Virus record (IMG/VR): IMGVR_UViG_3300043448_000620
Span: 1 to 22,707 of that record
Strand: one strand, 5' to 3'
Length of the DNA stretch: 22,707 bases
DNA from: a virus
The first letter of the stretch is position 1. Each line of letters starts with the position of its first letter. Positions 1-16,955 of this stretch are shown in pieces. The notes under the pieces were generated by a model, which made no database searches, was not told the DNA's origin, and saw only the letters and a program-made list of their open reading frames with translations. The position numbers and the translations under genes are program-made.

Positions 1-149
1 GTTGTGCCATTTGTGGAGTATCCATAGCCGCAGCATCTCCTACTGATGGTGCTGCTGGTTCTGGAACACTGGCTGCTGCTGTTGCTGCCTGTTGTGCCAT
101 TTGTGGAGTATCCATAGCCGCAGCATCCCCTACTGATGGTGCTGCTGGT
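1..149. repeat. 90-bp tandem direct repeat in the leftmost gene
   Basis: Bases 1-59 recur at 91-149 with one mismatch (tctcc versus tcccc), a period of 90 bp or 30 codons. The unit encodes an Ala-rich segment with the core SVGDAAAMDTPQMAQ. The array is cut by the left edge, so the copy number is unknown. Confidence 0.9.
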
Positions 150-676
150 GCTGCTTGTGCTGGTGCATCACTACCTGAGTATCCATATACTTCAGGATTA
201 GCATCTGCTGCTGCTTGTGTGGCCGCTTGGCCTTGTTTTGCTCTACGTTGTGCTAATCTATCTTGATTAGCTGCTTTAACATCAGCAATGATATTACCTG
301 TACCTTGTCCATAACTTGGATGACCTGGCATTTGTCCTCTAGCCTGTTGCATGGCTAGGTCATAATCGCCCTCTTCATCCAATCCCATATCCTGCATCAA
401 AGCACGAGCGATACTGCCCATACCTTCTTTGGTTGGCTTGTCTGTTGATCTAGCAGGCTTAAATCCTGGTTGTGCTTTTTTGGCAGACTTTTCAGCATCA
501 TCTGCTGCCTTATACATGCCTTTTTCTTTGAACTGATCAATATGTTTTTGCCAGTTCTTGATTTTTTCGGCATCAGTACCGCCCTTATATTCAACTACTG
601 GTGCTGCTGACTCAGCGATATATTTTTTACCTTTTTCAATAGCATCCATCTGTGCTATAAGATTTTTCATACTCAT
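1..676 (-). CDS. Ala/Gln/Pro-rich repeat protein, N-terminal part (runs off left edge)
   Basis: The open frame starts at ATG 676, three bases after the stop of the upstream gene, with AAGGA about 9 nt upstream. It stays open to base 1, so about 225 residues are present and the C-terminus is missing. The N-terminus (MSMKNLIAQMDAIEKG) is amphipathic like those of its neighbours and is followed by KKYIAE-S, an I-x-E site resembling a T4 prohead-protease site. A charged helical region follows, then a low-complexity tail rich in Ala, Pro and Gln. The tail ends in a 30-residue tandem repeat containing APSVGDAAAMDTPQMAQ. No enzyme motif is visible and I do not recognise the family. It is the last gene seen in the unit that starts at 4448. 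A structural or capsid-internal protein is an inference from context only. Confidence 0.75.
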   Translation of the reverse strand, partial: MSMKNLIAQMDAIEKGKKYIAESAAPVVEYKGGTDAEKIKNWQKHIDQFKEKGMYKAADDAEKSAKKAQPGFKPARSTDKPTKEGMGSIARALMQDMGLDEEGDYDLAMQQARGQMPGHPSYGQGTGNIIADVKAANQDRLAQRRAKQGQAATQAAADANPEVYGYSGSDAPAQAAPAAPSVGDAAAMDTPQMAQQAATAAASVPEPAAPSVGDAAAMDTPQMAQ

Positions 677-679
677 AGT

Positions 680-2998
680 TTAGTCCTTATCGCTACCGTC
701 TGCTTTTTTATGACTCTTGTAGCCTTTGTTTTTCATATGCCAAGCCAATGCCCAAGGATTCTTTTCCTTGCCATCTTTGGTCTTACCCTTGGTAAGTTCA
801 GGGTGTTTTTTCATTGCCTTCACTGTGCCCTTAAAACCAGGTGGGCTTTTTTCCTGTAGGCTTTCTGCCTTCACACAGTTATCTACCGTACGACGACCTT
901 TCTTCTTTGTGCCCATACGCTTGTAGCCTTTCCAGCAGGCCTTACCATCTACGCCTTTTTGTTTTTCTTCAATCATACGCACGATGTTTTTTAGTTCTGG
1001 ATAACTTACTGTTTCTAATGTATCTTTTTTAACGCCACTTACTGATTCTAAAATATGGTCAATGTATAAGTTTTTAAGATCACTCTTAGCGCCACTACTT
1101 AGTTGTAGGTAATAACTATCAGGAAGTTTTAGATCACGCTGGATGGCTTCAAAATGTACTTTAAATCCACCAGGTAATGTTCGTGTGCCAGGTGGGTCAC
1201 GTTTTACTTTTGGTTTATCTTCCTTATCACGCATTTGTTTATCTGCTAGAGCAGCAAGACTCATCTTAGGCTCATCGTCGTCACGAGTTTGAGCGTGAGG
1301 TTGTGGTTCCTCTCCTCTACTGCGTAGTGGATTTCTTTTCTCCCAACCCATAGTTCCATCCCAACCACCGTCTCTATCCCTTCTACCTTCCGCCACACCT
1401 TGCTGTTTAGGTTCTTTCGGTTCAAACTTTGTGGGACCATAGTCAGTGTAGCCCACAGCAGTTTTGGTACCCTTAGGGCACTTGCCTCTCTGATGCTCAC
1501 CTTGACGCTTGCCACAGTGTTTACATACAGGAGGTTGTGAGCCTTCCGCCACACCTTCCTCCATACCACGCTCACCCTGACGCATACTATAATCAGTATA
1601 ATCAAAATCGTCATCTTGATCTATATGAAAGAATCTATCATATGCCATACCGAATGCTCGTCTAAATAGTTTAGGATTGGCTTTCACTATACGTGGCATT
1701 TCTTGGGCCACCAGTTTCATATATGTATTTTTATCACCACCGCGTGGATAAATGCTTTGTATTATTTGACTAATATGTGATACCATATTGTCAGTTTCCA
1801 GTGAGCCTTCCGCCACACCTTGCTTGTGTTTTTTAATCCAGGCATGTGCTTCATCTCTGCTCTTGAATGGTCCCGCCACTGCCACCGCTTGCCCATCCTT
1901 GAACACACGCCAGGTTCCGTCTTTGGTTTCACGACCGGTATAGCCTTCCGCCACACCTTGCTCTTTGATGTTTAGTTGCTTTTTTGTATAGGCCACTGCG
2001 TCATCCAATGCGGCCAACCCTTTCTGTTCTGAATTCTTACTTAATCCAGTATCATATAGTTCATCACCATTATAGATTCTAACCTGCCAACCAAATCCGG
2101 TATCAACTAAATCGTGCCTAAAGTTTCCTACCTTGACAGACTTGACTACATTCTTTCCTGAGCCTTCCGCCACACCTTTCTCTGCTTTCTTTTCCTGTTC
2201 TCTACGACGAGCATAATCACTGGTTTGAGCAGGTTGTTTTTTGCGAGCAGGTTTTTGACCACTGATTATTGCTTCTTCACGCTCCCTACGACGGAAATAG
2301 TCTGATGTTTCCGCCACACCTTGTAGTTTCTTTAGTTCTAATTCAAGTTCTTGGACTTTTAGTTGGCGACCTTGTTCTTTGTACTTGGCAATAAGATTCT
2401 TAAGACTGCGGATCTTGTCTGCTTTCATTGAGTCTTTGGTCATTGGGCTGTAGTCTGCTTCCGCTACACCTTGTTCCATAAAAGGCTTTTTATGTTTTTC
2501 CTTACCCTGTTTCTGATCCCGCTTTTTATCCTTATGTTTGCCCGCACCTGTTTGTGGGCGTAGTGGTCCTTGACGGGGTTTTTGTGGAACACGAGCATCT
2601 TCCATCATACGTTGTACTATACTGCGTACCTGCTCACTGCTTTCATAAGTTTCTTGAACACCACCTTGAAGTATGCCTGCTTTTTTCATTGCTTCTTGAG
2701 TTTTTGGACCAACACTCATGACCATGTCTATTTTGCCGTTTCTTATCATTATAAAAGGTGCCATGTTTCTAATGATGGCGCCGCCGCCTTCAGGTCTATT
2801 ATTGGGAGTAAGATATGTATTTGTAGTGGTATCTAACACGGCCTTTACTGTGAATCCGCCCACGTCAACAGTTGTTGCTACAAACCCATCGCCTAAATCT
2901 TGTTGACTATCGCCAGATGTTGGATTACCAAATCCTCTGTCATCTGGACCTCCAGGGGCAACCCTTTCAACTATTTTGATATATTTTTCTAGACTCAC
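680..2998 (-). CDS. Modular mosaic protein with seven GVAE linkers
   Basis: I chose GTG 2998 (772 aa): it lies two bases after the stop of the upstream cysteine-rich gene and GAAGGA precedes it by 6 nt. A TTG at 3034 in the same frame lacks such support. The N-terminus MSLEKYIKIVE resembles those of neighbouring genes. A domain of about 130 residues is followed by a Lys/Gln-rich stretch and then short modules separated by seven GVAE motifs. The modules include a coiled-coil-like KELE segment, twin TSDYxRRRE units, a WQVRIYNGD module, a WRVFKDG module, a helical module, a CCHC-like knuckle (CKHC, then H and C) and an Arg/Asp-rich linker. The C-terminus carries a GKACWKGYKR module and a PGFKGTVKAMKKH/NPWALAWHMKNKG module, types I have seen in other marine T4-like phage proteins. 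No catalytic site is visible. A packaged polyprotein or modular virion protein is inference. Confidence 0.85.
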   Translation of the reverse strand: MSLEKYIKIVERVAPGGPDDRGFGNPTSGDSQQDLGDGFVATTVDVGGFTVKAVLDTTTNTYLTPNNRPEGGGAIIRNMAPFIMIRNGKIDMVMSVGPKTQEAMKKAGILQGGVQETYESSEQVRSIVQRMMEDARVPQKPRQGPLRPQTGAGKHKDKKRDQKQGKEKHKKPFMEQGVAEADYSPMTKDSMKADKIRSLKNLIAKYKEQGRQLKVQELELELKKLQGVAETSDYFRRREREEAIISGQKPARKKQPAQTSDYARRREQEKKAEKGVAEGSGKNVVKSVKVGNFRHDLVDTGFGWQVRIYNGDELYDTGLSKNSEQKGLAALDDAVAYTKKQLNIKEQGVAEGYTGRETKDGTWRVFKDGQAVAVAGPFKSRDEAHAWIKKHKQGVAEGSLETDNMVSHISQIIQSIYPRGGDKNTYMKLVAQEMPRIVKANPKLFRRAFGMAYDRFFHIDQDDDFDYTDYSMRQGERGMEEGVAEGSQPPVCKHCGKRQGEHQRGKCPKGTKTAVGYTDYGPTKFEPKEPKQQGVAEGRRDRDGGWDGTMGWEKRNPLRSRGEEPQPHAQTRDDDEPKMSLAALADKQMRDKEDKPKVKRDPPGTRTLPGGFKVHFEAIQRDLKLPDSYYLQLSSGAKSDLKNLYIDHILESVSGVKKDTLETVSYPELKNIVRMIEEKQKGVDGKACWKGYKRMGTKKKGRRTVDNCVKAESLQEKSPPGFKGTVKAMKKHPELTKGKTKDGKEKNPWALAWHMKNKGYKSHKKADGSDKD
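1386..2473. repeat. Seven dispersed copies of a 12-18 bp in-frame repeat (GVAE linker)
   Basis: The copies lie at 1386-1402, 1541-1557, 1805-1822, 1943-1960, 2162-2178, 2308-2323 and 2458-2473. On the coding (minus) strand the core GGTGTGGCGGAA is identical in six copies; the seventh has GTA for GTG. Most copies extend to CAAGGTGTGGCGGAAGGC, encoding QGVAEG. Spacing varies from about 140 to 265 bp and always keeps frame. The identity includes synonymous positions and uses GTG and GCG codons, which are G/C-ending in an AT-rich genome. Confidence 0.95.
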
Positions 2999-3000
2999 TT

Positions 3001-3165
3001 TTATTCCTTCACCATACAATCTACACACTGACAATCTGGGCAGTTGCTACAATCATTACAACTATGACCGCAATGTGGAGTACATTTACAGGCATAGCAT
3101 ACAGGCTCACTTATTTTTAGAGCCATATATGATCCGTATTCATCCACCCAGTTAGGTAATGTCAT
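3001..3165 (-). CDS. Small cysteine-rich protein (54 aa, 10 Cys)
   Basis: ATG 3165 overlaps the TGA of the upstream gene as ATGA, and its TAA lies two bases before the GTG of the downstream gene, so it fills the gap exactly and is probably translationally coupled. The first 20 residues (MTLPNWVDEYGSYMALKISE) have no Cys. The rest carries Cys at 23, 26, 28, 32, 36, 39, 42, 45, 47 and 50 plus two His, in repeated CxxC and CxC spacing. This looks like a metal cluster-binding peptide (zinc or metallothionein-like) or a disulfide-rich knot. No signal peptide is present, so cytoplasmic or virion metal binding is more likely than an exported disulfide protein. The family is not recognised. Confidence 0.75.
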   Translation of the reverse strand: MTLPNWVDEYGSYMALKISEPVCYACKCTPHCGHSCNDCSNCPDCQCVDCMVKE

Positions 3166-4448
3166 TTCAAACGACCATCTTTCTCAGCACTCTTAAGCAT
3201 GGCAGCACGATCACTATAACCCTTTACACCAGGCTTAATATCTTTTGCTGCTTTCTTTTCACCTGCTGTAGGATTCTTAACATGTTTCATTGTGGTCTTA
3301 GCCTGATGACTAGCCTCACTCATGCCACTACATTCTTTCATACCATGTACTGGGCAACTTTTACCTTTTGGTGTATGATTACATTTGGTTGCTTCACTTA
3401 CCTTCTTATCCTTGGCTGCTTTTCCTATAGGTTCTTTTGTGTTTCCGTCGTTGTCAATATCAGGAAAATCTGGCTTGGCTGCTTCTTTAAATGGCTTGCC
3501 TGACTTAGCAGCGGCCTTAGCACGACTACCCCAAACTTCATCTTTAGGAGTTTCTACATTGCCATCACCATCATAATCTTTCTTGGCCTTTTTTGACTCT
3601 TGTGTTTTCTTACGTATGCTATCTACACTATAACCTGTGCTCTTATGATCACGTCCAGCACGATCACGTACATCACCTTCGCTTTCGCCCTCGTCTGCAT
3701 CATAGTGAACGTTCTTAGTCTTAGCACCGTCTTTGTGCATTAGTTTTACGCTGTACTGTGATTTAGTACTGGCAGCAGCCTTTTTCTCTGCTGTACCAAC
3801 ACCTTTACCAGCCCTATGACCTGTAGCCTCAGATGTTTTTTGACGAATACTATCTACACTATAGCCTGTGCTCTTATGATCACGCCCAGCACGATCACGT
3901 ACATCACCTTCGCTCTCACCTTCATCTGCGTCATAGTGAGCATTCTTTGTCTTAGAACCATCCTTGTGAACTAGTTTTACACTGTATTGTTTTTTAGTAC
4001 TGGCAGCAGCTTTTTTTTCTTGCGTACCAACACCTTTGCCAGCCCTATGACCAGTGGCTTCTTCTACCTTTTCTTCTTTCTTTTCATCCTTCTTCTTCAT
4101 CTTTTCAGCCTGGGCCTTCTTAAGAGCTTTCATTTTCTCTTTGGCTTCCATTAGCTTACGACCGAGGATACGTTTTTCTTCAGGAGTATACATATCACTC
4201 ATTTCAAGTTTCTGTCCATACTCGCTGAATTTCATTTCATATTCTAAATAGTGATACACACTGGCCATATAGTCTGCGGCCTTAGTGATTTTAGCCTGTA
4301 CCCAACCATCTAGTTGTGCATTATCATCCATCATTTTAAATAGTTTTAACGCATATCTAGCAGTCTTATAAAGGTCAGCCTTGGCCATTTTACCTTCATC
4401 TTCGTGCTCTGGGTCTGGTAAAGATTGCTGTTGCATAATAGGATCCAT
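3162..4448 (-). CDS. Modular Lys-rich protein with 77-aa tandem duplication and EF-hand-like loops
   Basis: The 428-aa product starts at ATG 4448, 20 nt downstream of a CGATAAATA box, with GGAG upstream. Residues about 25-75 form a helical domain (DGWVQAKITKAADY, then VYHYLEYE) of a type I recognise as widespread in marine T4-like phages, function unknown. A charged coiled-coil segment (about 90-127) follows, then two 77-residue repeats (130-206 and 207-283). DYDGDGN (291-297) and DIDNDGN further on are calcium-loop-like. Near the C-terminus there is a His/Cys cluster (CNH, then CPVHGMKEC), then a Lys-rich end. Modules are bounded by E-A or E-S steps: VEE-A, TSE-A, TQE-S, VSE-A, MSE-A. These look like prohead-protease-type sites, but cleavage is inference. 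No catalytic residues are visible. Confidence 0.85.
   Translation of the reverse strand: MDPIMQQQSLPDPEHEDEGKMAKADLYKTARYALKLFKMMDDNAQLDGWVQAKITKAADYMASVYHYLEYEMKFSEYGQKLEMSDMYTPEEKRILGRKLMEAKEKMKALKKAQAEKMKKKDEKKEEKVEEATGHRAGKGVGTQEKKAAASTKKQYSVKLVHKDGSKTKNAHYDADEGESEGDVRDRAGRDHKSTGYSVDSIRQKTSEATGHRAGKGVGTAEKKAAASTKSQYSVKLMHKDGAKTKNVHYDADEGESEGDVRDRAGRDHKSTGYSVDSIRKKTQESKKAKKDYDGDGNVETPKDEVWGSRAKAAAKSGKPFKEAAKPDFPDIDNDGNTKEPIGKAAKDKKVSEATKCNHTPKGKSCPVHGMKECSGMSEASHQAKTTMKHVKNPTAGEKKAAKDIKPGVKGYSDRAAMLKSAEKDGRLK
3600..4061. repeat. 231-bp tandem duplication within the modular gene
   Basis: Bases 3831-4061 and 3600-3830 encode two adjacent copies of a 77-residue unit beginning EATGHRAGKGVGT and ending in YSVDSIRxKT. 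The period of 231 bp was measured from shared anchors (3619 and 3850). About 70 of 77 residues match, and many of the DNA differences are synonymous, so the duplication is not very recent or the unit is under selection. Confidence 0.95.
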
Positions 4449-4468: not shown

Positions 4469-4477
4469 TATTTATCG
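4469..4477 (-). promoter_or_regulatory. Late-promoter-like box CGATAAATA
   Basis: On the minus strand this reads CGATAAATA, one base from the T4 late consensus TATAAATA in its last eight positions. It lies 20 nt before the ATG at 4448. The same nine bases recur at 9497-9505 and 18279-18287, each 17-24 nt before a start codon. The box overlaps the stop codon of the upstream 75-aa gene. Promoter activity is inferred. Confidence 0.55.
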
Positions 4478-4699
4478 TTTAAGCGTTGTTTGTCCAAATA
4501 AGCTGATATTGCTATCTAGTGCGTTTTTGGCTGTTCCATTAGTGTTTTTTAGGGTTGCTACTTTAGGTGGCTTGGGTTTACTACCTTTACCATATTGCTT
4601 TATATTACCTATAGCTACATGAGGGTTAGGCACTGCTACTACATTTCCTGCACTTGTAACACCTGCGCTCGCCGTTTCAAATAGCTCTCTCAGTCTCAT
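4472..4699 (-). CDS. Small conserved T4-like phage protein, capsid-targeting-like N-terminus
   Basis: The 75-residue product starts at ATG 4699, directly after the TAA of the upstream gene, with GGA 6-7 nt before the start. The N-terminus MRLRELFE-TASAG resembles a T4 capsid-targeting peptide followed by an L-x-E cleavage site. The remainder is a Gly/Ser/Asn/Lys-rich basic chain (TSAGNVVAVPNPH, KGSKPKPPK) with little predicted globular structure. I recall similar short proteins near structural genes of marine T4-like phages, without a known function. A DNA-associated internal capsid peptide would fit its basic, low-complexity composition, but this is inference. Its stop codon lies within the promoter-like box for the next gene. 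Confidence 0.75.
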   Translation of the reverse strand: MRLRELFETASAGVTSAGNVVAVPNPHVAIGNIKQYGKGSKPKPPKVATLKNTNGTAKNALDSNISLFGQTTLKR

Positions 4700-5056
4700 T
4701 TATATTCCATATTGATTACGTTTGATCTTGGCCACAGGACTCACTGTATTAGTTGTTTTAAGCTCTTCACTAGGACCAGATTTAATTATACTTTTTCCTT
4801 TCACACCCTGATTTTTTTCAGCTTGCTTAAGTATATCTTCTTCACCTTTACTATATAACCAAACGGTAGGATTATCCTTAGCTGGCCCTGCTTTATTAAT
4901 TGATTTATCAGGTGCTCCAGCCATGGCTATTCCTAGGCGATACATTCCATAATACTGATCCATATCCTGATATTGTTTGGCATGAATGCCAGATTGTTTA
5001 ATATTTTTACCAAGATGTTTTTCTGCTTTTTCGTTTATGATTTCACGTATTTTCAT
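4700..5056 (-). CDS. Conserved phage protein of unknown function (118 aa)
   Basis: ATG 5056 overlaps the TGA of the upstream gene as ATGA, and AAGGG lies 7 nt upstream. The N-terminus MKIREIINE-KAEK is amphipathic with an I-N-E site, like its neighbours. The central part contains YYGMYRLGIAMAGAPD, a segment I associate with a conserved small protein of T4-like marine phages (the MxYRFGVAMAGSP type). The C-terminal half is Lys-rich and includes SKGEEDILKQAEK. There are no Cys residues, no membrane segment and no catalytic motif. The position among genes with similar N-termini suggests a virion-associated product; function is unknown. Confidence 0.8.
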   Translation of the reverse strand: MKIREIINEKAEKHLGKNIKQSGIHAKQYQDMDQYYGMYRLGIAMAGAPDKSINKAGPAKDNPTVWLYSKGEEDILKQAEKNQGVKGKSIIKSGPSEELKTTNTVSPVAKIKRNQYGI

Positions 5057-5283
5057 CGCATACCCTTCCCAATTGGTTTTTCACCTGTGAGGTATGGTAA
5101 ACTAAACCATAGTTGAAACCATTCTTTAGTACCTGGTTTAATATTATGCTTCTTTTGTAGTTCACCTTTTTCATTACCACTTAAACTGATATTGATGCCA
5201 GCGTAAGGATCCACTGGGTCATACTTAACATAGCCCTTGAACTCGTTAATACCTGCTAACTTTTTTAGTTCGCTCAGTGTCAT
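5053..5283 (-). CDS. Small conserved phage protein of unknown function (76 aa)
   Basis: ATG 5283 overlaps the upstream TGA as ATGA, and the gene ends in the same kind of overlap with the next. The N-terminus MTLSELKKLAGINE-F is a short amphipathic helix ending in an I-N-E step. The body contains DPYAGINISLSGNEKGELQKKH and then KPGTKEWFQLWFSLPYLTGE, aromatic-rich and probably folded. I have the impression that this WFxLWFSxPxLTGExP pattern recurs in marine T4-like phages, but no function is known to me. Tight coupling to both neighbours implies co-expression with the nucleotidylyltransferase gene upstream. Confidence 0.78.
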   Translation of the reverse strand: MTLSELKKLAGINEFKGYVKYDPVDPYAGINISLSGNEKGELQKKHNIKPGTKEWFQLWFSLPYLTGEKPIGKGMR

Positions 5284-6638
5284 TGCTTAAACATGCCCTT
5301 CTGACCAAATACGCTTTGGAACTGTGTGCCTAACATATTTTTTAACTTGTCTCTCTGATCTGCTCTCAGTATGATTTGATTACCATCAAACTTGAATCCC
5401 ATACTGCGTAGTTTAGGTAATAGATCAGTTTTCAATAATGTGTATTTAAACGTATCTGGTTGTGCCACAGCGTGTCCACCCATCTGTGTATTAGGTTTAC
5501 CTGGTATGGCCACACGATGTCTCTTACCATCTGGACCTACTACAAAATGATCTACACCACTGGGCTTACGATCTGGTTCATCTGGTTCTTTGTCTCTAAA
5601 TAGTTCATAACGTTCATCGCCACCCTGTTCTATATAATCTTTGATTTGATATAGTTCTGGACCGTGTTCGCTACGTAGCACACTGGGTGGGAATACAAAC
5701 TGAGCCTTTTCAGCACCAATAAAGTCTACATCACGTAGACTATCTTCAAGTTCACCTAAAGCACTAGTTGCATCTGTAAATAGGAAGTTTACTCTCAGGG
5801 GACGAACTTTGCCACCCTTCTTATCCTTAATGCCTACAGCGTTGGCCTTTTGTACAACTTCTTGAGGGCGAGTACCAAAGTCTCCTACAACACGTACATT
5901 GCCAGTGTTGTCTAATTTGAATACAATATATAATGTGCCACTGGGCTGTTCTAATTCATATAGTCTCATTTCTTTAGCCTTCTTTTTAGGTTTGGCAGCA
6001 GTCATCTGTGCCATACGGTCTTTGGCCTTACGCATAAGATCCATAACTGTATCGTCATCAATCTCTGGGCTCATAGCATCACGCCAAACTGCGAATTGTT
6101 CTTGTTCACTCTTATTTGGATCTGTCAATACCTGACGCATTGGTGTAGCACGTGGTCCTTCTTCACCAGCACTGGGATCACCGGTCTCTTGACGACTAAT
6201 AACATCTAAACTATCAAAGTTAAAGGGAACTTCACCTTTCTTATTAGGTTTACCGTTATATTGTTTAAGATATTGGAAAGCAGTGACCTGATCAGCACCA
6301 ACTACTACAGTGACGTTATTATAGCCTTGTTGGTTAAGGTTGCTTAGTACTCTGGTTAGATCTGGTAGTTCATCTGTAGCAGTTTGAAATATATGACTGC
6401 TATCAGGGAACACACGTTTATAAATGCTGAGTTTTTCTTCAGGTTGTAAAGGGTCATCAGGTCCATATGTCCTACTAACCACAAAGTAGGGATCACCTCC
6501 AATCTTATCAGAATAGGTTAGTACACTGCTGGCCAACATCATATGACCTTTGTGACCCATGCCTCTACCCCAACCTACTACAGCAGTGTTCTTTTCTCCG
6601 GTACGTGCCAAGTTTTCAAATAGTTGTCTGAGCCTCAT
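5280..6638 (-). CDS. HxGH-family nucleotidylyltransferase with extra C-terminal domain
   Basis: The 452-aa product starts at ATG 6638, in ATGA overlap with the upstream gene. After an MRLRQLFE N-terminus comes a Rossmann-type nucleotidylyltransferase domain (about 17-175). It shows the HxGH signature HKGH at 29-32, a VVVGAD strand near 111-116 and ISRQ followed by RATPMRQVL, matching the distal S/TxxxR motif of cytidylyl- and NMN-adenylyl-transferases. Such enzymes transfer a nucleotide to a phosphorylated small molecule; the substrate is not evident. A Lys-rich linker (216-222) leads to a second block that itself begins MRLYELE (224-230), then an alpha/beta region of about 220 residues that I do not recognise. 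Its overlap with the NTase/ligase-like gene suggests a joint nucleotide-transfer role. HxGH enzymes with capsid-targeting-like N-termini occur in other T4-like phages as far as I recall. Confidence 0.8.
   Translation of the reverse strand: MRLRQLFENLARTGEKNTAVVGWGRGMGHKGHMMLASSVLTYSDKIGGDPYFVVSRTYGPDDPLQPEEKLSIYKRVFPDSSHIFQTATDELPDLTRVLSNLNQQGYNNVTVVVGADQVTAFQYLKQYNGKPNKKGEVPFNFDSLDVISRQETGDPSAGEEGPRATPMRQVLTDPNKSEQEQFAVWRDAMSPEIDDDTVMDLMRKAKDRMAQMTAAKPKKKAKEMRLYELEQPSGTLYIVFKLDNTGNVRVVGDFGTRPQEVVQKANAVGIKDKKGGKVRPLRVNFLFTDATSALGELEDSLRDVDFIGAEKAQFVFPPSVLRSEHGPELYQIKDYIEQGGDERYELFRDKEPDEPDRKPSGVDHFVVGPDGKRHRVAIPGKPNTQMGGHAVAQPDTFKYTLLKTDLLPKLRSMGFKFDGNQIILRADQRDKLKNMLGTQFQSVFGQKGMFKQ
5967..5982 (-). 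promoter_or_regulatory. Candidate internal ribosome binding site and start for the C-terminal half
   Basis: Within the nucleotidylyltransferase gene the minus strand reads GAAGG, 8 nt, then ATG at 5969. The peptide from this ATG, MRLYELE-QPSG, resembles the N-termini of neighbouring proteins. Initiation here would yield a separate 229-residue protein (5280-5969). The alternative is a fossil gene fusion that kept the motif. Confidence 0.35.
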
Positions 6639-8527
6639 TCATCTCTCCTAGGGGCCCAAGCATCCTGATCTATGGCCTTAATAAATTGTCCTGGTAAATC
6701 ATTTTTAAATGGCGTACCAGGATGTGCGCTTACATATCCTTCTGGCTTGGTTTGTCTAATACCACTATGTGTACCACTGCTTAAACCATTAATCATTTCT
6801 AGTTTGGCCTTGGTTAATAGTTCAACAGCCATTAGTACAGCATCAATTCCAACACGATCTTTTAATATTGTCTCTGCTTGTTTTGAACTGACATTACGAC
6901 CTACCCATTCAATAAATTTTTGTTTTACACCAGGTATACGTAGGTTTTGATTATAAAATTTGTAAAGGACTTCTCCTGGTTTACTTAGGCCAGGCTTTGG
7001 TGATAAAAAGTTATTGATTTGATTAGCATTAGCTTGTATAAATTCTTGTACACTATCTAGGCTATTTTCTACAATCTGTGGTGGCTCCTCTACATAGACA
7101 GTTCCTTGTACGATAACATCAGGAGTACTTAAACTTTCTGGTTGAGGATATCTAGTTTCTTCATTGCTGCCTAATGATGGATAGTACCCAGTAGCAGCTA
7201 CCATTACTTTAGCTACTCTTATTCTACGACCAAGGTCACTGTTTTTACCAATATGGAATGTAGTAATATTTGGTGTGAATTCATACTCTTGTGTTTCTGG
7301 ATTTAGTATAGCTTTGGCACTGCCGCCATCAGGTTTGTTTCCTGGATAAAATAATAATCCACCTTCTATAAATCCTTCTGCTGGACTTACTTGTTCAAAA
7401 TAAGTCCATAAACTGGCTAACTGTTTAGCATATTGTTTACGTTGTGCTTCCTTAGTTGGATCAGGACGTCCAGTACTTAGTAAGAATTTTTGTACTTCAT
7501 CTGAACTGCGTGGAGCAGTTCTTACACCATTATCTAATTCTGTTTTACCACGTTTAAGATAATCCCAAGCATTTTTAGGAATCATCATAAACACGCCATC
7601 TTGTTTCCCCCAATATACAACAGGACTACCGTCCCACTTAAGTTCAATATTACCACCTTGACCAGTCATATGTCTCATACGTTCTACAGCATGTAGACCA
7701 CCTTGTGATCCATTGGTAAACACTAGATCTTCTATGTGTTGATACTTACGTCCTATAGCTGGTGCTGCTGCTTCAAAAAACTTTTGTTCTGGTCCTTTTA
7801 GTGGAACACTTTTCCAACTTTGCCCACCAGCAGCTAAACTATAAATTTTTTGTCTTGTTGCAGCATCAGGTAGTGCTGCCATAATACTTTCTACACTGCC
7901 TAAACTACGAGCATTGGCTCTAGGACCAATTAAGTAACGTGCTATCTCATCCAAGTCAGTGCTGATTAAATCTGCTTTTTTACCTTGTTGATCACGAGCA
8001 TATAATCCTTCATCAGGACTCCATAGCATGTTTTGACTGCTAGCCAATGCGTTCATGATCATTTGTTTGTGTACACCTTTGTATGAACTACCTTGTGGTA
8101 TTTGGTGTACATGGAACTTATGTACGTTAGCAGCATTACGTACTACCTTAACGTCTACTTGATGACAAGTTGATCCAAAGGGTAATTTAATATGTACTGT
8201 TACTGCTATACGTTTTGTTTCTAAACCTTTATCGTTTAAATATTTTTCTAGATTTATCCGTATTTTTTTAGGATCTTCTTCGTTAAAGAACTGAGCAGCA
8301 GTGTCCAAGTCTACCATAACATCTAAGTCACCACTCATAACTCCTGGAGTTGGTGTTGCTCCACTGCCTATTCTATGTACTTTGAGTCCTGTGCCTCTAA
8401 GATATCTTTCAAGTTGTGCTTCAATTTGAGGTGCTTTACTTTGGTCGAATGGTTCACACTCGTCCCAAATATTGCCACCCTCCATCAAAGGAGTACGTAC
8501 CTTAGAGAACAACTCACGTAGCATCAT
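6635..8527 (-). CDS. Pol-beta-type nucleotidyltransferase fused to KxDG ligase-like domain
   Basis: The 630-residue product starts at ATG 8527 (ATGA overlap; a second ATG follows at once). After MMLRELFS, residues about 25-200 show a pol-beta superfamily NTase: GSG at 54-56, DLD with Asp67 and Asp69, and a third carboxylate Asp125 in CHQVDVKV, the pattern of poly(A) polymerase or CCA-type transferases. From about 260 onward a second domain has ELKWDGSP, a KxDG ligase/capping motif with Lys297 as the candidate nucleotidylated lysine. EGFIEGGLLF (384-393) follows, like the EG-containing motif of ATP-dependent ligases, then a basic RRIRVAKV segment. The C-terminus is helical. A reasonable guess is RNA or DNA end modification: tailing plus ligation. 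The ligase assignment rests on motifs alone. Confidence 0.72.
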   Translation of the reverse strand: MMLRELFSKVRTPLMEGGNIWDECEPFDQSKAPQIEAQLERYLRGTGLKVHRIGSGATPTPGVMSGDLDVMVDLDTAAQFFNEEDPKKIRINLEKYLNDKGLETKRIAVTVHIKLPFGSTCHQVDVKVVRNAANVHKFHVHQIPQGSSYKGVHKQMIMNALASSQNMLWSPDEGLYARDQQGKKADLISTDLDEIARYLIGPRANARSLGSVESIMAALPDAATRQKIYSLAAGGQSWKSVPLKGPEQKFFEAAAPAIGRKYQHIEDLVFTNGSQGGLHAVERMRHMTGQGGNIELKWDGSPVVYWGKQDGVFMMIPKNAWDYLKRGKTELDNGVRTAPRSSDEVQKFLLSTGRPDPTKEAQRKQYAKQLASLWTYFEQVSPAEGFIEGGLLFYPGNKPDGGSAKAILNPETQEYEFTPNITTFHIGKNSDLGRRIRVAKVMVAATGYYPSLGSNEETRYPQPESLSTPDVIVQGTVYVEEPPQIVENSLDSVQEFIQANANQINNFLSPKPGLSKPGEVLYKFYNQNLRIPGVKQKFIEWVGRNVSSKQAETILKDRVGIDAVLMAVELLTKAKLEMINGLSSGTHSGIRQTKPEGYVSAHPGTPFKNDLPGQFIKAIDQDAWAPRRDE

Positions 8528-8907
8528 TTATACATACCATCCTTCATATGTTGTAGTTCTGTTTCGTATATATGTTGTGCTACCTGTTCTGTAAATTCTT
8601 CTTCTAATGTATCGTCAAGTTCTCTAATGGGAAATTCTTGTTTATAACTTTCATATGCTTTTTTAATTACAGGTTTAAACACTCTATGACTAAATTTACT
8701 ACCACTTTCGAATTGTGCTTTACATGTTTTTAGTATAGGAAAGAAATGACGACGATAAAAATCATCATTGTGATGCATATAAAAAACAAGATCTTCTGCT
8801 AGGTCAAATTCATATTTGCCTTGCTCATCTTTTATAATTTTACTATCAGTCTTTAACATGTCATCAACTGATAGTTCTTTATTACCAAACATTTCAAATA
8901 ATTTCAT
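8524..8907 (-). CDS. Unknown acidic helical protein (127 aa)
   Basis: ATG 8907 follows the upstream stop by 6 nt, with GGTGA about 7 nt before it. The stop forms an ATGA overlap with the NTase/ligase-like gene. The N-terminus MKLFEMFGNKELS is amphipathic like its neighbours. The body looks all-helical and charged, with an aromatic/His cluster (YMHHNDDFYRRHFFP) and acidic helices towards the C-terminus (DDTLEEEFTEQVAQH). I do not recognise the family. It has no membrane segment and one Cys. Coupling to the NTase/ligase-like gene makes an accessory or co-packaged protein plausible, but nothing in the sequence proves it. Confidence 0.78.
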   Translation of the reverse strand: MKLFEMFGNKELSVDDMLKTDSKIIKDEQGKYEFDLAEDLVFYMHHNDDFYRRHFFPILKTCKAQFESGSKFSHRVFKPVIKKAYESYKQEFPIRELDDTLEEEFTEQVAQHIYETELQHMKDGMYK

Positions 8908-8913
8908 AATAGT

Positions 8914-9480
8914 TCACCAAGCACGACAAGACCAATAACGAGCTTTCCATTTTGGTCCTGGATTAGCACAATTATGTCTTGCCCTAAAATTCTTACGTCT
9001 ACTAGGTATATGTTTTTTTATACTTAATTTTTTATCACCAAAGTTAACTTTAACAATTTTACCATTAGGTTTACGAACATATACTTTACTTTTGGCTACA
9101 TCACCTTTCATAGGTTTACCTAGGGGAACATTATGTCCTTGATGCATGGCTTCTGCTGCTCCCCCTACTAATTTACCCTTAGGATTAGTAGGTCCAGGAC
9201 TGCGTAATTGACCAGCCTGGCCTATTTTATGTTTACCTAATCCAGCAAATGGCCATGTAGACTCATCCAATTCTTCAAAAAAAGTAATGCCTACTTCCTG
9301 TAATAAGGCTAATGCTAAGTTATCTAGTTCAACTAATATAGAATCTTCTGATACTATCAAAACATCAGTTTCTATAGCATCTCTTTCATTGAGATCAAAA
9401 TAGAAGCCATCTCCAGGATGTATGTCTACATCCTCGGATTCTACTTGTTCTACATATTCTAATATACTTTTATTAGTCAT
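8914..9480 (-). CDS. DUF5872-like conserved phage protein
   Basis: I prefer ATG 9480 (188 aa) because GGGA lies 6 nt upstream; an in-frame GTG at 9492 would add four residues. A CGATAAATA box lies 17 nt before it, so this is probably the first gene of the unit running to 4472. The N-terminal 85 residues are acidic. A Gly/Pro-rich linker (GLGKHKIGQAGQLRSPGPTN) follows, then a basic C-terminal domain with KVYVRKPNGKIVKVNFGD, RRKNFRARHNC, PGPKWKARYWSCRAW. That end, with its two Cys and conserved Trp/Arg residues, is the signature I associate with DUF5872, common in marine T4-like phages and of unknown function. The family name is from memory and should be confirmed. Confidence 0.82.
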   Translation of the reverse strand: MTNKSILEYVEQVESEDVDIHPGDGFYFDLNERDAIETDVLIVSEDSILVELDNLALALLQEVGITFFEELDESTWPFAGLGKHKIGQAGQLRSPGPTNPKGKLVGGAAEAMHQGHNVPLGKPMKGDVAKSKVYVRKPNGKIVKVNFGDKKLSIKKHIPSRRKNFRARHNCANPGPKWKARYWSCRAW

Positions 9481-14532: not shown

Positions 14533-14827
14533 AATTACCTCCTTGTGTGTTGTTTGCTGTGTTCTGCCCCCAAACAGGAGCGCCCGGACCCGTGTTAGGT
14601 ATTTCATTTTTTCCCTTTCCTAATGTTCTTGGATCTATTTGACCTTTAAATACGTGTTCTGGACAAGTTCTTGTTACATCGCATAATGGCACTTTACAAA
14701 TTTCCTTTTCCCAATTAGCGGGATCCTGACAAGGATATCTAAATCTATCCCCACCAAATACTGCTACGCCTAGTGGTAAAACTATTAATACGGCTAGCCA
14801 TTTAAATAACTTTTTATCCTCTGCCAT
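14522..14827 (-). CDS. Single-TM protein with Cys-containing periplasmic part
   Basis: The 101-residue product starts at ATG 14827 with AAGGAG 6 nt upstream. After a charged MAEDKKLFK, residues about 9-25 (WLAVLIVLPLGVAVFGG) form one membrane segment. The remainder has five Cys (YPCQ, EICK, PLCD, RTCP, GNCG), a His and many Asn/Gly/Pro, consistent with an oxidised periplasmic domain. Its 3' end overlaps the next gene by 11 bp, supporting coupling. The family is not recognised. Location in the lysis and envelope block suggests a role at the inner membrane; a pinholin or antiholin is possible from topology only. Confidence 0.8.
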   Translation of the reverse strand: MAEDKKLFKWLAVLIVLPLGVAVFGGDRFRYPCQDPANWEKEICKVPLCDVTRTCPEHVFKGQIDPRTLGKGKNEIPNTGPGAPVWGQNTANNTQGGNCGK

Positions 14828-14857
14828 TACACGCTCCTTATAATTGGCATAATGTAT

Positions 14858-15103
14858 TTACTTTATTTCTATTCTATTTTTATACTCGTTATACTTGTGT
14901 TGAGCAGCCAATAGTTCTATGTTACGTTCTTCTTCACCTAGTTGTTCAGCACGATGAATATCTTTTTGATATAAATCTTCTATAAGTTTAGTTGCTTCGT
15001 CTCTTTTTTTAGTTAATTCTTTATAGACAATATTGAATTCGGCAATAGCGTATTCAATTTTACGTTCCTTACCTATAAAAAGATTCAATATACTCTTAAA
15101 CAT
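14858..15103 (-). CDS. Small coiled-coil protein (81 aa)
   Basis: ATG 15103 follows the stop of the upstream lipoprotein gene within a few bases and lacks a clear Shine-Dalgarno sequence, so it may depend on reinitiation. The N-terminus MFKSILNLFIGKERK is a short amphipathic, possibly membrane-associated helix. The rest is one long charged helix with heptad-like hydrophobics (YAIAEFNIVYKELTKKRDEA, then AEQLGEEERNIELLAAQHKY). No Cys, no signal peptide and no catalytic motif are present. A peripheral partner of the neighbouring coiled-coil membrane protein is possible. Function is unknown. Confidence 0.75.
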   Translation of the reverse strand: MFKSILNLFIGKERKIEYAIAEFNIVYKELTKKRDEATKLIEDLYQKDIHRAEQLGEEERNIELLAAQHKYNEYKNRIEIK

Positions 15104-15104
15104 T

Positions 15105-15350
15105 TTAATTATTTTTACAGTCTATTTGAAGTTGGCGAATATCATTTTTTTGTAATAACATTAGGCCTGTAGCACGTACTGAAGGATCATTACTTTTGGT
15201 CATTTCAATAAGAGCCTGAATACGGGCAGCTTCCATAACTACCATATCCTTGGCCATTTTTTCCTGTGTTTGCATACAAACAGCATAGTTATTGGTAAAC
15301 GCACATCCTGATAGCAATAATGAACCTAGCAAAAGTAATTTCTTAATCAT
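15105..15350 (-). CDS. Small lipoprotein, second of a pair
   Basis: I choose ATG 15350, which overlaps the TGA of the upstream lipoprotein gene as ATGA and gives MIKKLLLLGSLLLSGC, a typical lipoprotein signal with lipobox LLSG-C. An ATG at 15365 would only add MGKET. The 81-aa precursor leaves a mature chain of about 66 residues, mostly helical, with AVCMQTQEKMAKDMVVMEAA and a second distal Cys near the end (QIDCKNN). It would be anchored to the outer membrane, or the inner membrane if an Asp+2 rule applied; position +2 is Ala, so outer membrane is expected. It could be an o-spanin or an accessory lipoprotein. Confidence 0.82.
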   Translation of the reverse strand: MIKKLLLLGSLLLSGCAFTNNYAVCMQTQEKMAKDMVVMEAARIQALIEMTKSNDPSVRATGLMLLQKNDIRQLQIDCKNN

Positions 15351-15625
15351 GGTTTCTTTTCCCATATCTTTTTCTGTGTGTTATACCATTCGATCCAGCC
15401 ATCATTTTTTAGGCTACATTCATAATATAATTTGTAATTATCGGTAACTGCTTTTAAGAATTCTGTAATACTCACAGTGTCAGTCTCTATTGTTTTAAGA
15501 TCTGGACATTTTTCAAATAGCGCAGGATTTTTTTGTTCTGGGAATTGAGGATACCAAGGCCAATATTTTTGGTAAGCACATCCTGATATGGTCAAACTTA
15601 AAAGGAGAATAGTTAGCAATCTCAT
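15347..15625 (-). CDS. Lipoprotein, candidate o-spanin (Rz1-like)
   Basis: This 92-residue precursor starts at ATG 15625 in ATGA overlap with the upstream coiled-coil membrane gene. MRLLTILLLSLTISGC is a lipoprotein signal with lipobox TISG-C. The mature part is aromatic and Pro-rich at first (YQKYWPWYPQFPEQKNP), then carries CPDLKTIETD and YKLYYECSLKNDGWIEW. That pair of Cys and the KLYYEC-type helix resemble regions I know from phage Rz-type proteins. Spanins join inner and outer membranes in the last step of lysis of Gram-negative hosts. Placement directly after a TM/coiled-coil gene, itself following the endolysin, supports the assignment. It is not embedded in another frame as lambda Rz1 is. 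Confidence 0.65.
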   Translation of the reverse strand: MRLLTILLLSLTISGCAYQKYWPWYPQFPEQKNPALFEKCPDLKTIETDTVSITEFLKAVTDNYKLYYECSLKNDGWIEWYNTQKKIWEKKP

Positions 15626-16326
15626 TTCTTATCTCCTTTTTGTTTTGAATCATTAAAGTTTTTAATGGCCTGATTATATTGTTGCATTACTAGTTTAGGA
15701 ATATTAGGATGATCGGCTAGTTCTTTCATTCTAGTTTCGTATTCTTGTCTTTCTTTATCACTCATATTGATAACTTTTTCCTGATCTTCCTTAGGTAATG
15801 CGGCCAATGAAAGTTTGCTGTCCTCAAACTTAACTTTTTCTTCGGCAGTCATAGCTTCATATTTCTTTAATTCTTCTGGAGTAAGAAGTTTGACTATGAT
15901 TTTTTTGCGTTCTTCAGCTGGTAGACTACGCAGTCTATCCATTTCCTTTTTAAGTTTATCTAATTTATTTGCTGCTTCTTTATTGATCACATCTATTCTA
16001 GCCAGTGCTGCTTCTTTGGCTTTTTGTTCGGCAACTAGTTTATCGTTAGCAGCATCGGCTTCTTGTTTTTTCTGTTCTATTAATCCTTCTGCTTCTTTAA
16101 CTTTTTCTTGCCAATGATCATTAATTGTAGTTCCGCCGTACATAAAAACACTACATAGTACAATAATACCGCCTACTGGTTTAACAAACATCATATAAGG
16201 ACGTAATGGTGGAATGTGGCTGAAGATACTGGCAAAGAAAAATGCTACTAGTCCTAAACAGGCCAGTATGAGCCAGAACAGAGGAGGCAAATTAAGTATA
16301 GTATGTTCTACTAGCCACATTAACAT
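15622..16326 (-). CDS. Two-TM coiled-coil membrane protein, candidate i-spanin or holin
   Basis: The 234-aa product begins at ATG 16326, sharing one base with the endolysin stop (TGATG). Two hydrophobic segments, about 14-36 (PLFWLILACLGLVAFFFASI) and about 49-66 (VGGIIVLCSVFMYGG), are followed by about 165 residues of charged helix. Long Ala/Lys/Glu heptads (KVKEAEGLIEQKKQEADAAN) lead into a region of helical hairpins with the phrases LTPEELKKYEAMTAEEK and MSDKERQEYETR. Coupling to the endolysin upstream and the lipoprotein downstream is the order expected for endolysin, i-spanin, o-spanin. However, i-spanins usually have one TM, so a holin-like or structural coiled-coil role remains possible. 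Confidence 0.72.
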   Translation of the reverse strand: MLMWLVEHTILNLPPLFWLILACLGLVAFFFASIFSHIPPLRPYMMFVKPVGGIIVLCSVFMYGGTTINDHWQEKVKEAEGLIEQKKQEADAANDKLVAEQKAKEAALARIDVINKEAANKLDKLKKEMDRLRSLPAEERKKIIVKLLTPEELKKYEAMTAEEKVKFEDSKLSLAALPKEDQEKVINMSDKERQEYETRMKELADHPNIPKLVMQQYNQAIKNFNDSKQKGDKK

Positions 16327-16955
16327 CAGTGTACTCCAAATACGTGTAAGGCGTGCTTATAATGTTTTTCACGATCTGCTAGGCCAATAGTGCCACCATT
16401 AATCTTCTTAGTCAATGTAAGTATATCACCCTGATCAGCCCAAGTGTTAAGTTTATTCATTTCCCAAAAGAAACAGCCACTTTGTACAGCGCCTTCAAAT
16501 GTTTCTAAATATTCGCTGGCTTCTTCTACAGGAATATCCAAACTACCAGCAAAGAAAGTATAATTGTTTTTACCAGTAAGTTGTATCAATCCCCTACCAC
16601 AATATCTAAAACCATCTCCTGATTCTTCAGGACCATTGCCCATACGATTAGCATATACACGGTTAGCAATTTTTTCTGGCTTGTTAGCATAGGCAGCAGC
16701 AGTGGCATCATCTGGAAAGTATTTAGGAAATACTTTGCGTAGGCTGGCTGCTCTATAGTTTAAGTTTTCTTTAAGGAATTTGAACCCGCCACTCTCATGA
16801 GCACATTGAGCAATAAATGCTGCTACTCTTTGCGGTGTATTGATTTCGTATTCTGGTAGTATAGTATGTAAAGCATTGAACCAATAATCAACATATGGAT
16901 TACCTGGTATCATTTGTTTAAGTTGCTCTTTGTTAAAATCAAAAGTAAAACTCAT
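16326..16955 (-). CDS. GH19-family endolysin (chitinase-like muramidase)
   Basis: This 209-residue enzyme has the GH19 core. AHESGG (52-57) carries the catalytic Glu54. The YANRMGNGPEESGDG region and YCGRGLIQLTG (118-128) form the substrate groove. KINGGTIGLADR near the C-terminus is the typical terminal motif. The usual YRGRG is YCGRG here, a conspicuous substitution. It would cleave the glycan strands of peptidoglycan during lysis. There is no signal peptide, so a holin must release it. ATG 16955 overlaps the upstream gene as ATGA. The following genes encode a TM/coiled-coil protein and lipoproteins, forming a recognisable lysis module. Confidence 0.92.
   Translation of the reverse strand: MSFTFDFNKEQLKQMIPGNPYVDYWFNALHTILPEYEINTPQRVAAFIAQCAHESGGFKFLKENLNYRAASLRKVFPKYFPDDATAAAYANKPEKIANRVYANRMGNGPEESGDGFRYCGRGLIQLTGKNNYTFFAGSLDIPVEEASEYLETFEGAVQSGCFFWEMNKLNTWADQGDILTLTKKINGGTIGLADREKHYKHALHVFGVH

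Follow-up and report, generated by a model that had tools for sequence, protein, structure and literature searches.

The 22,707-nucleotide DNA analysed here (the window) is the entire IMG/VR record IMGVR_UViG_3300043448_000620 (22.7 kb) of a freshwater T4-related giant phage, whose clamp loader shares 56% identity with its counterparts in Pseudomonas phage PA5oct and the jumbo phages related to it. Six consecutive minus-strand genes at 4472-8907, some of which overlap at their stop/start junctions, form a chain whose protein bodies belong to different families and whose otherwise unrelated products begin with leaders of 8-16 residues. The chain most probably encodes capsid-targeted head cargo that is processed by a gp21-type prohead protease (probability roughly 0.85). 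Packaging and processing are well supported by the sequence, and injection of the proteins into the host may be inferred by analogy. All six open reading frames, with the starts assigned to them in an earlier sequence-only reading, are present; genes are named below by their first coordinate, and a slash within a motif marks a candidate cleavage position.

4472 to 4699, minus strand: 75-residue putative cargo protein; leader MRLRELFE (4676-4699) running into TASAGVTSAGNV, which copies the N-terminus of the mature capsid protein
4700 to 5056, minus strand: 118-residue protein with no assigned function; leader MKIREIINE (5030-5056)
5053 to 5283, minus strand: 76-residue protein with no assigned function; leader MTLSELKKLAGINE (5242-5283), resembling a gp22 tail, pattern [DE][ILM][RK][RK]LAG[LI]
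5280 to 6638, minus strand: 452-residue predicted nucleotidyltransferase of the NMNAT/NadD fold (residues 15-207); leader MRLRQLFE (6615-6638)
6635 to 8527, minus strand: 630-residue fusion; leader MMLRELFSKVRTPLME (8480-8527), polymerase-X-like domain (residues 20-213) and DUF6267 ligase-like domain
7772 to 7783, minus strand: internal site KFFE/AAAP in the 630-residue fusion, ahead of the DUF6267 domain
8524 to 8907, minus strand: 127-residue protein with no assigned function; leader MKLFEMF, no early [LI]xE in the window

Homologues of each chain gene were gathered from viral contigs. As the window record is too short to hold the head genes, these were taken from G011, a 400-kb relative, where they lie in T4 order (portal, prohead core protein, gp21 protease at 91575-92201, gp22 scaffold, gp23 capsid protein); gp21 and gp23 were assigned by Pfam profile and the portal, core protein and gp22 by position and sequence character. 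Both gp23 and gp21 are present in G011 and in G019 (76 kb), and neither was found in ten smaller relatives, which are fragments and so uninformative. The leader profile covered nine N-terminal residues and was trained without the test genomes or the family of the gene under test; its background consisted of 1,840 internal methionine windows of G011. Genes 4472, 4700, 5280 and 6635 score at the floor of this test (p=0.0005), 8524 at p=0.0011 and 5053 at p=0.0103, and the next-best genes of the window, which encode a peptide deformylase and a protein with a lipoprotein signal peptide, reach p=0.029 each. The common N-termini proposed from the sequence alone therefore stand out from background in all six genes (p<=0.010), whereas 5053 proved to belong to a different, scaffold-tail-like leader class. 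Cytoplasmic proteins of the window stay at background (ClpA 0.71, DnaJ 0.35, PhoH 0.44, clamp loader 0.52, GroES 0.95), and the motif is thus not equally common on cytoplasmic enzymes, the observation that the earlier reading had named as fatal to its proposal. The search in relatives that it had suggested returned 8 of the 442 N-termini of G011 at p<=0.001, against 0.4 expected; five belong to chain homologues, and the others to proteins starting MKLNELITE (299 residues), MILRELF (80 residues, immediately downstream of the portal gene) and MKIYEILNE (98 residues). Since this genome-wide scan was trained with the chain families, only these three non-chain proteins are independent hits.

The codon listing bears out the earlier statement that the likeness is held at the protein level: MRLRELFE is written AGA CTG AGA GAG CTA TTT GAA, MRLRQLFE is AGG CTC AGA CAA CTA TTT GAA, and MMLRELF is ATG CTA CGT GAG TTG TTC. 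The same leader residues are kept over 30-82 distinct homologues per family; many relatives of 8524 start MRIRELLE, unlike the MKLFEMF of the window. By amphipathic moment the leaders rank in the top 6-23% of G011 N-termini, which is only modestly high, and amphipathicity alone is therefore weak evidence.

T4 gp21 cleaves after L/I-x-E, and in the T4 leader targeting resides in residues 4 and 7 and processing in residues 8 and 10 (PMC9026906). The window leaders end in LFE (4472 and 5280), INE (4700 and 5053) and LME (6635), and 8524 has no [LI]xE. Among distinct N-termini, [LI]xE is found in 27/30 for 4472, 30/42 for 4700, 26/42 for 5280 and 43/82 for 8524, compared with 11% of internal methionine windows; one form of the 5280 enzyme has a leader, MLLREFLNRTGE, without a cleavage site. 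For proteome counts a candidate site was defined as [LIVM]xE/[AGST]. The top G011 protein by this definition is gp22, with 12 sites against 2.8 expected, as fits a scaffold that is shredded by gp21 in T4, and this validates the definition. Where DUF6267 is encoded by a separate gene, 22/22 distinct sequences have a leader that ends in [LI]xE, and the next residue is A in 20/22; where it follows the polymerase-X-like domain in a fusion, 30/30 have a hydrophobic-x-E ([LIVFM]xE) at the joint. The structural model of the 6635 product has low confidence at residues 1-4, 8-16 and 252-263, which correspond to the leader and the joint and suggest a disordered linker. Stand-alone polymerase-X-like genes (L022, L026, L054, L063, L128) carry very short leaders of the form MILLE/GGNIW, in which the site is present and the amphipathic part is absent.

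Two leaders copy or resemble signals of the head itself. The capsid protein of the clade is marked by the site YLxE/[ST]ATAGATSAGN[VI]ATLNRV, and 78/78 sequences have its L and its E, the residue after E being S, T or A; the G011 capsid protein reads YLAE/TASAGTTSAGNVATLNRV, and gene 4472 reads MRLRELFE/TASAGVTSAGNV. Of the 118,651 20-mers of G011 outside the capsid protein, the one that best matches the N-terminus of the mature capsid protein lies in the 4472 homologue and begins exactly after its leader E. The match score of 45 is not extreme by itself (shuffled queries gave a mean maximum of 34, and one reached 46), and the case is made by the match position and chain membership, not by the score alone. 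The gp22 scaffolds of the clade end in DI[RK]RLAG[LI], a C-terminal tail that the 5053 leader resembles (RRLAGL); in G011 only gp22 and two further proteins carry a scaffold-type tail at their C-termini. The G011 proteins at 166415-168616 (L199) and 375302-376186 (L209) end in the scaffold-type tails KIAGLR and KKLAGL, and the former is also among the top proteins of its proteome for candidate protease sites. Small proteins that are like the mature capsid N-terminal arm also occur in S-SCSM1 (ORF97, L230:1121-1306; GPTAGYDP) and S-SM1 (ORF197, L219:7805-8353; GPNAGYDP); ORF97 is labelled a virion protein and parallels gene 4472.

The earlier reading had counted two enzymes in the chain, and fold models and motifs likewise predict at least two, an NMNAT-like nucleotidyltransferase and a polymerase-X-like/ligase-like fusion. 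In structural comparison the model of gene 5280 is closest to NadD (residues 15-207; Z 9.6 over 158 residues), and the motifs H29-G31-H32 (HxGH) and T165-P-M-R168 ((S/T)xxxR-type) are invariant; the enzyme fold begins downstream of the leader, and the model is poor past residue 210 (mean pLDDT 65). The product is accordingly modelled as an NMNAT-like nucleotidyltransferase. Residues 20-213 of the 6635 product match Pol beta/lambda (Z 11.2 over 173 residues; Foldseek probability 1.00), with G54-S55, D67, D69 and D125 invariant (GS-x(n)-DxD and a third D), which suggests a DNA polymerase X-like domain, a CCA-adding-type transferase being an alternative. In DUF6267 the KWDG (motif I, KxDG), E-G-x-V (motif IV) and a K are invariant in 18 homologues, including cyanophage ones; the KWDG/EGxV motifs are typical of ligases and point to a putative covalent nucleotidyltransferase/ligase. 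PDB sequence searches with three alignments, DUF6267 included, gave no real match, and the fold calls rest on models. No full-length relative of gene 6635 was found in any named phage of the phage collection. The cargo may serve repair of incoming DNA (gap filling and ligation) or RNA repair (a CCA-type transferase and an RNA ligase), two readings that are not separable.

Homologues of the 5280 enzyme have been met in virions before. They were detected by mass spectrometry in virions of S-SM1 (PMC3037559) and in mature, CsCl-purified particles of S-SCSM1 (PMC9602691); NMNAT-like or cytidylyltransferase proteins are also reported for S-CBWM1, S-SZBM1 and S-CREM2 (PMC10665884). In S-SCSM1 the enzyme gene is one of five successive protein genes whose products all bear the label of virion protein. 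The cyanophage (Kyanoviridae) T4-GC190 NMNAT-like cytidylyltransferase is homologous to 5280, is often adjoined by a DUF6267 gene and has a leader ending LxE/A. Unlike that of the window, this leader is T4-like in the records read, MK(S/K/R)FxxFLxE/A, with MKSFLQFLKE/A, MKKFSAFLNE/A, MKSFFQFLSE/A and similar forms (MKxFxxFLxE/A) close to the MKTYQEFIAE/A of T4 IPII/IPIII. A targeting leader is not mentioned in the accessible parts of the published cyanophage accounts of the virion enzyme.

The likeness to T4 internal proteins that had been proposed lies in the architecture, including the [LI]xE end; the leader sequence itself differs (MRLRELFE against MKTYQEFIAE), T4 IPII/IPIII reaching p=0.042 with the window-clade profile, and 8524 lacks an early [LI]xE. 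As in T4 IPI, IPII, IPIII and Alt, a short leader (about 10-19 residues for the T4 type) with spaced hydrophobic residues and an [LI]xE end precedes functionally unrelated proteins, and the relative G011 has homologues of gp21 and gp23, identified by profile, together with a scaffold in the gp22 position. In contrast to T4, the chain cargo comprises nucleotidyltransferase and polymerase-X/ligase-like enzymes and fusions with internal sites, and its leaders copy a capsid site (4472) or resemble a scaffold tail (5053). In giant phages such as phiKZ and SPN3US, whose ejection proteins gp175 and gp245 are cut by prohead proteases, a gp21-like protease likewise cleaves many head proteins after glutamate. 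These systems belong to a different lineage and have larger propeptides; no relationship of the chain to them was seen, and no search aimed at one was made.

Taken together, the head-cargo reading is favored because the leader is confined to the chain in the window and sparse elsewhere in G011, because 4472 copies the capsid maturation site and 5053 resembles the gp22 tail, because hydrophobic-x-E is kept ahead of DUF6267 in low-confidence linkers, and because the enzyme fold starts past the leader and cyanophage homologues with T4-type leaders are reported from virions. These points support the earlier suggestion that the proteins are packed in the head. By analogy with T4 and from the scaffold-like 5053 leader, the amphipathic N-terminal leader, as a capsid-targeting sequence, would bind the prohead core. 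At head maturation the gp21-type protease would cut after [LI]xE, a site marked by its conservation, and would part the polymerase-X-like from the DUF6267 domain of the 6635 fusion. The mature proteins would remain with the DNA and then be ejected into the host, where the enzymes would most likely act on the incoming genome or on the host nucleotide/NAD pool at the start of infection.

The alternative that survives best holds that the leader does target the prohead, and that the proteins serve in head assembly and are lost at maturation, as T4 gp22, gp67 and gp68 are, instead of being injected. We consider it unlikely, while giving it appreciable weight: the capsid arm of 4472, the scaffold-like tail of 5053 and the position of the small MILRELF protein beside the G011 portal gene all suit it, but NMNAT-, polymerase-X- and ligase-like enzymes have no obvious role in head assembly, and the cyanophage NMNAT stays in mature, CsCl-purified virions (PMC9602691). 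Leaders acting as interaction tags that assemble the proteins into an intracellular complex, not the head, are considerably less probable. Such tags would agree with one tag on overlapping consecutive genes and with leaders devoid of a cleavage site (MLLREFLNRTGE, window 8524), but they leave unexplained why 4472 carries the capsid site and mature arm and 5053 a scaffold-like tail, why [LI]xE/A is conserved before DUF6267, and why cyanophage homologues are reported from virions. A translation-initiation or mRNA constraint, or a recent 5'-end duplication, to which the stop/start overlaps in parts of the chain might be attributed, is rejected as highly improbable because the codons differ by gene, the residues are kept in the 30-82 distinct homologues per family, [LIVFM]xE is kept at the joint inside fused proteins, where there is no start codon, and window genes with ordinary starts lack the leader.

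Several points weigh against head cargo. The window-clade profile lacks specificity for T4 leaders (IPII/IPIII p=0.042), and the cytoplasmic enzyme T4 lysozyme, whose superficially similar start is MNIFEML, reaches p=0.035; lone N-termini such as that of 8524 are therefore not to be over-read. In S-SCSM1 a loose leader-plus-site regular expression fails to part virion (5/47) from non-virion proteins (10/149), and the evidence is for this reason restricted to family-level or profile results. Several leaders lack [LI]xE, which only 26/42 of the 5280 family and 43/82 of the 8524 family possess; site-less leaders (window 8524, the MLLREFLNRTGE form) are tolerable because targeting and processing are separable in T4. 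The cyanophage authors leave carry-over open for the virion enzymes (PMC9602691, PMC10665884). A library search for virion proteomics of PA5oct-type jumbo phages gave nothing usable, and none for this clade.

Cyanophage papers repeatedly found an NMNAT-like virion enzyme and could not tell cargo from contamination. A conserved leader and protease site, common to the enzyme and its neighbours in a separate giant-phage clade, make the cargo question directly testable and allow the proteins that would be injected to be listed from the sequence alone. The findings also suggest that phages recruit enzymes into heads through a short tag, or through a copied capsid cleavage site or scaffold tail.

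Further genes at 1-3034, 3162-4448 and 8914-9480 adjoin the chain and join its row:

8914 to 9480, minus strand: 188-residue protein with N-terminus MTNKSILEYVEQVE; module FAGLGKHKIGQAGQLRSPGPT in common with a G011 polyprotein; weaker candidate
3162 to 4448, minus strand: 428-residue lysine-rich protein with a duplicated module and no N-terminal leader; weaker candidate
680 to 2998, minus strand: 772-residue putative cargo polyprotein; leader MSLEKYIKIVE
1 to 676, minus strand: start of a further protein, MSMKNLIAQMDAIEKGKKYIAE/SAAP; the window edge cuts the gene; weak candidate

The chain probably continues into modular, putatively protease-cut polyproteins at the window start (1-2998). The 680-2998 protein holds 10 [LIVM]xE/[AGST] sites against 2.6 expected, mostly QGVAE/G or QGVAE/A, and its GVAE junctions have the DNA GGTGTGGCGGAA in common, for which a recombining repeat may be an alternative or additional reading. 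The 3162-4448 protein has four [LIVM]xE/A sites against 1.5 expected (p=0.07). In G011, the protein at 285181-287439 (L205) consists of four parts, with the leader MRFKEIITE/ and junctions TLRE/, QGLAE/ and QGVAE/ that precede an acetyltransferase-like domain and a basic tail; 5/7 QGVAE/QGLAE occurrences in the G011 proteome fall in multi-domain proteins with leaders. These junctions recur in differing multi-domain leader proteins (680-2998; G011 217070-219061, L201; 285181-287439). Module FAGLGKHKIGQAGQLRSPGPT occupies the middle of the separate gene 8914-9480 in the window and forms part of the long repeat protein at G011 217070-219061; its presence in two protein contexts implies that modules move between proteins. 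It is conceivable, at somewhat less than even odds, that the phage packs and injects modular polyproteins, which the prohead protease cuts into separate effectors in the head and whose modules are exchanged, and that these travel together with polymerase-X, ligase and NMNAT enzymes loaded beforehand as a kit to repair the incoming genome.

The T4-type late promoter TATAAATA is absent from the window, and in G011 no clear link emerged. Three genes with leader-like N-termini form a second row at G011 387024-388377 (L210), and one of them has peptidoglycan-binding and phage tail-lysozyme domains. The 431-residue protein at G011 319931-321226 combines the leader MIMKITDIISE/D with a kinase-like glycine loop, GSGHFGKVYD, and has no Pfam match; kinases are reported from cyanophage virions (PMC10665884). 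The product of window gene 4700-5056 and the unrelated protein of G003 at 14817-16456 (L040) have the C-terminal end K[RK]N[QK]YG[IV] in common.

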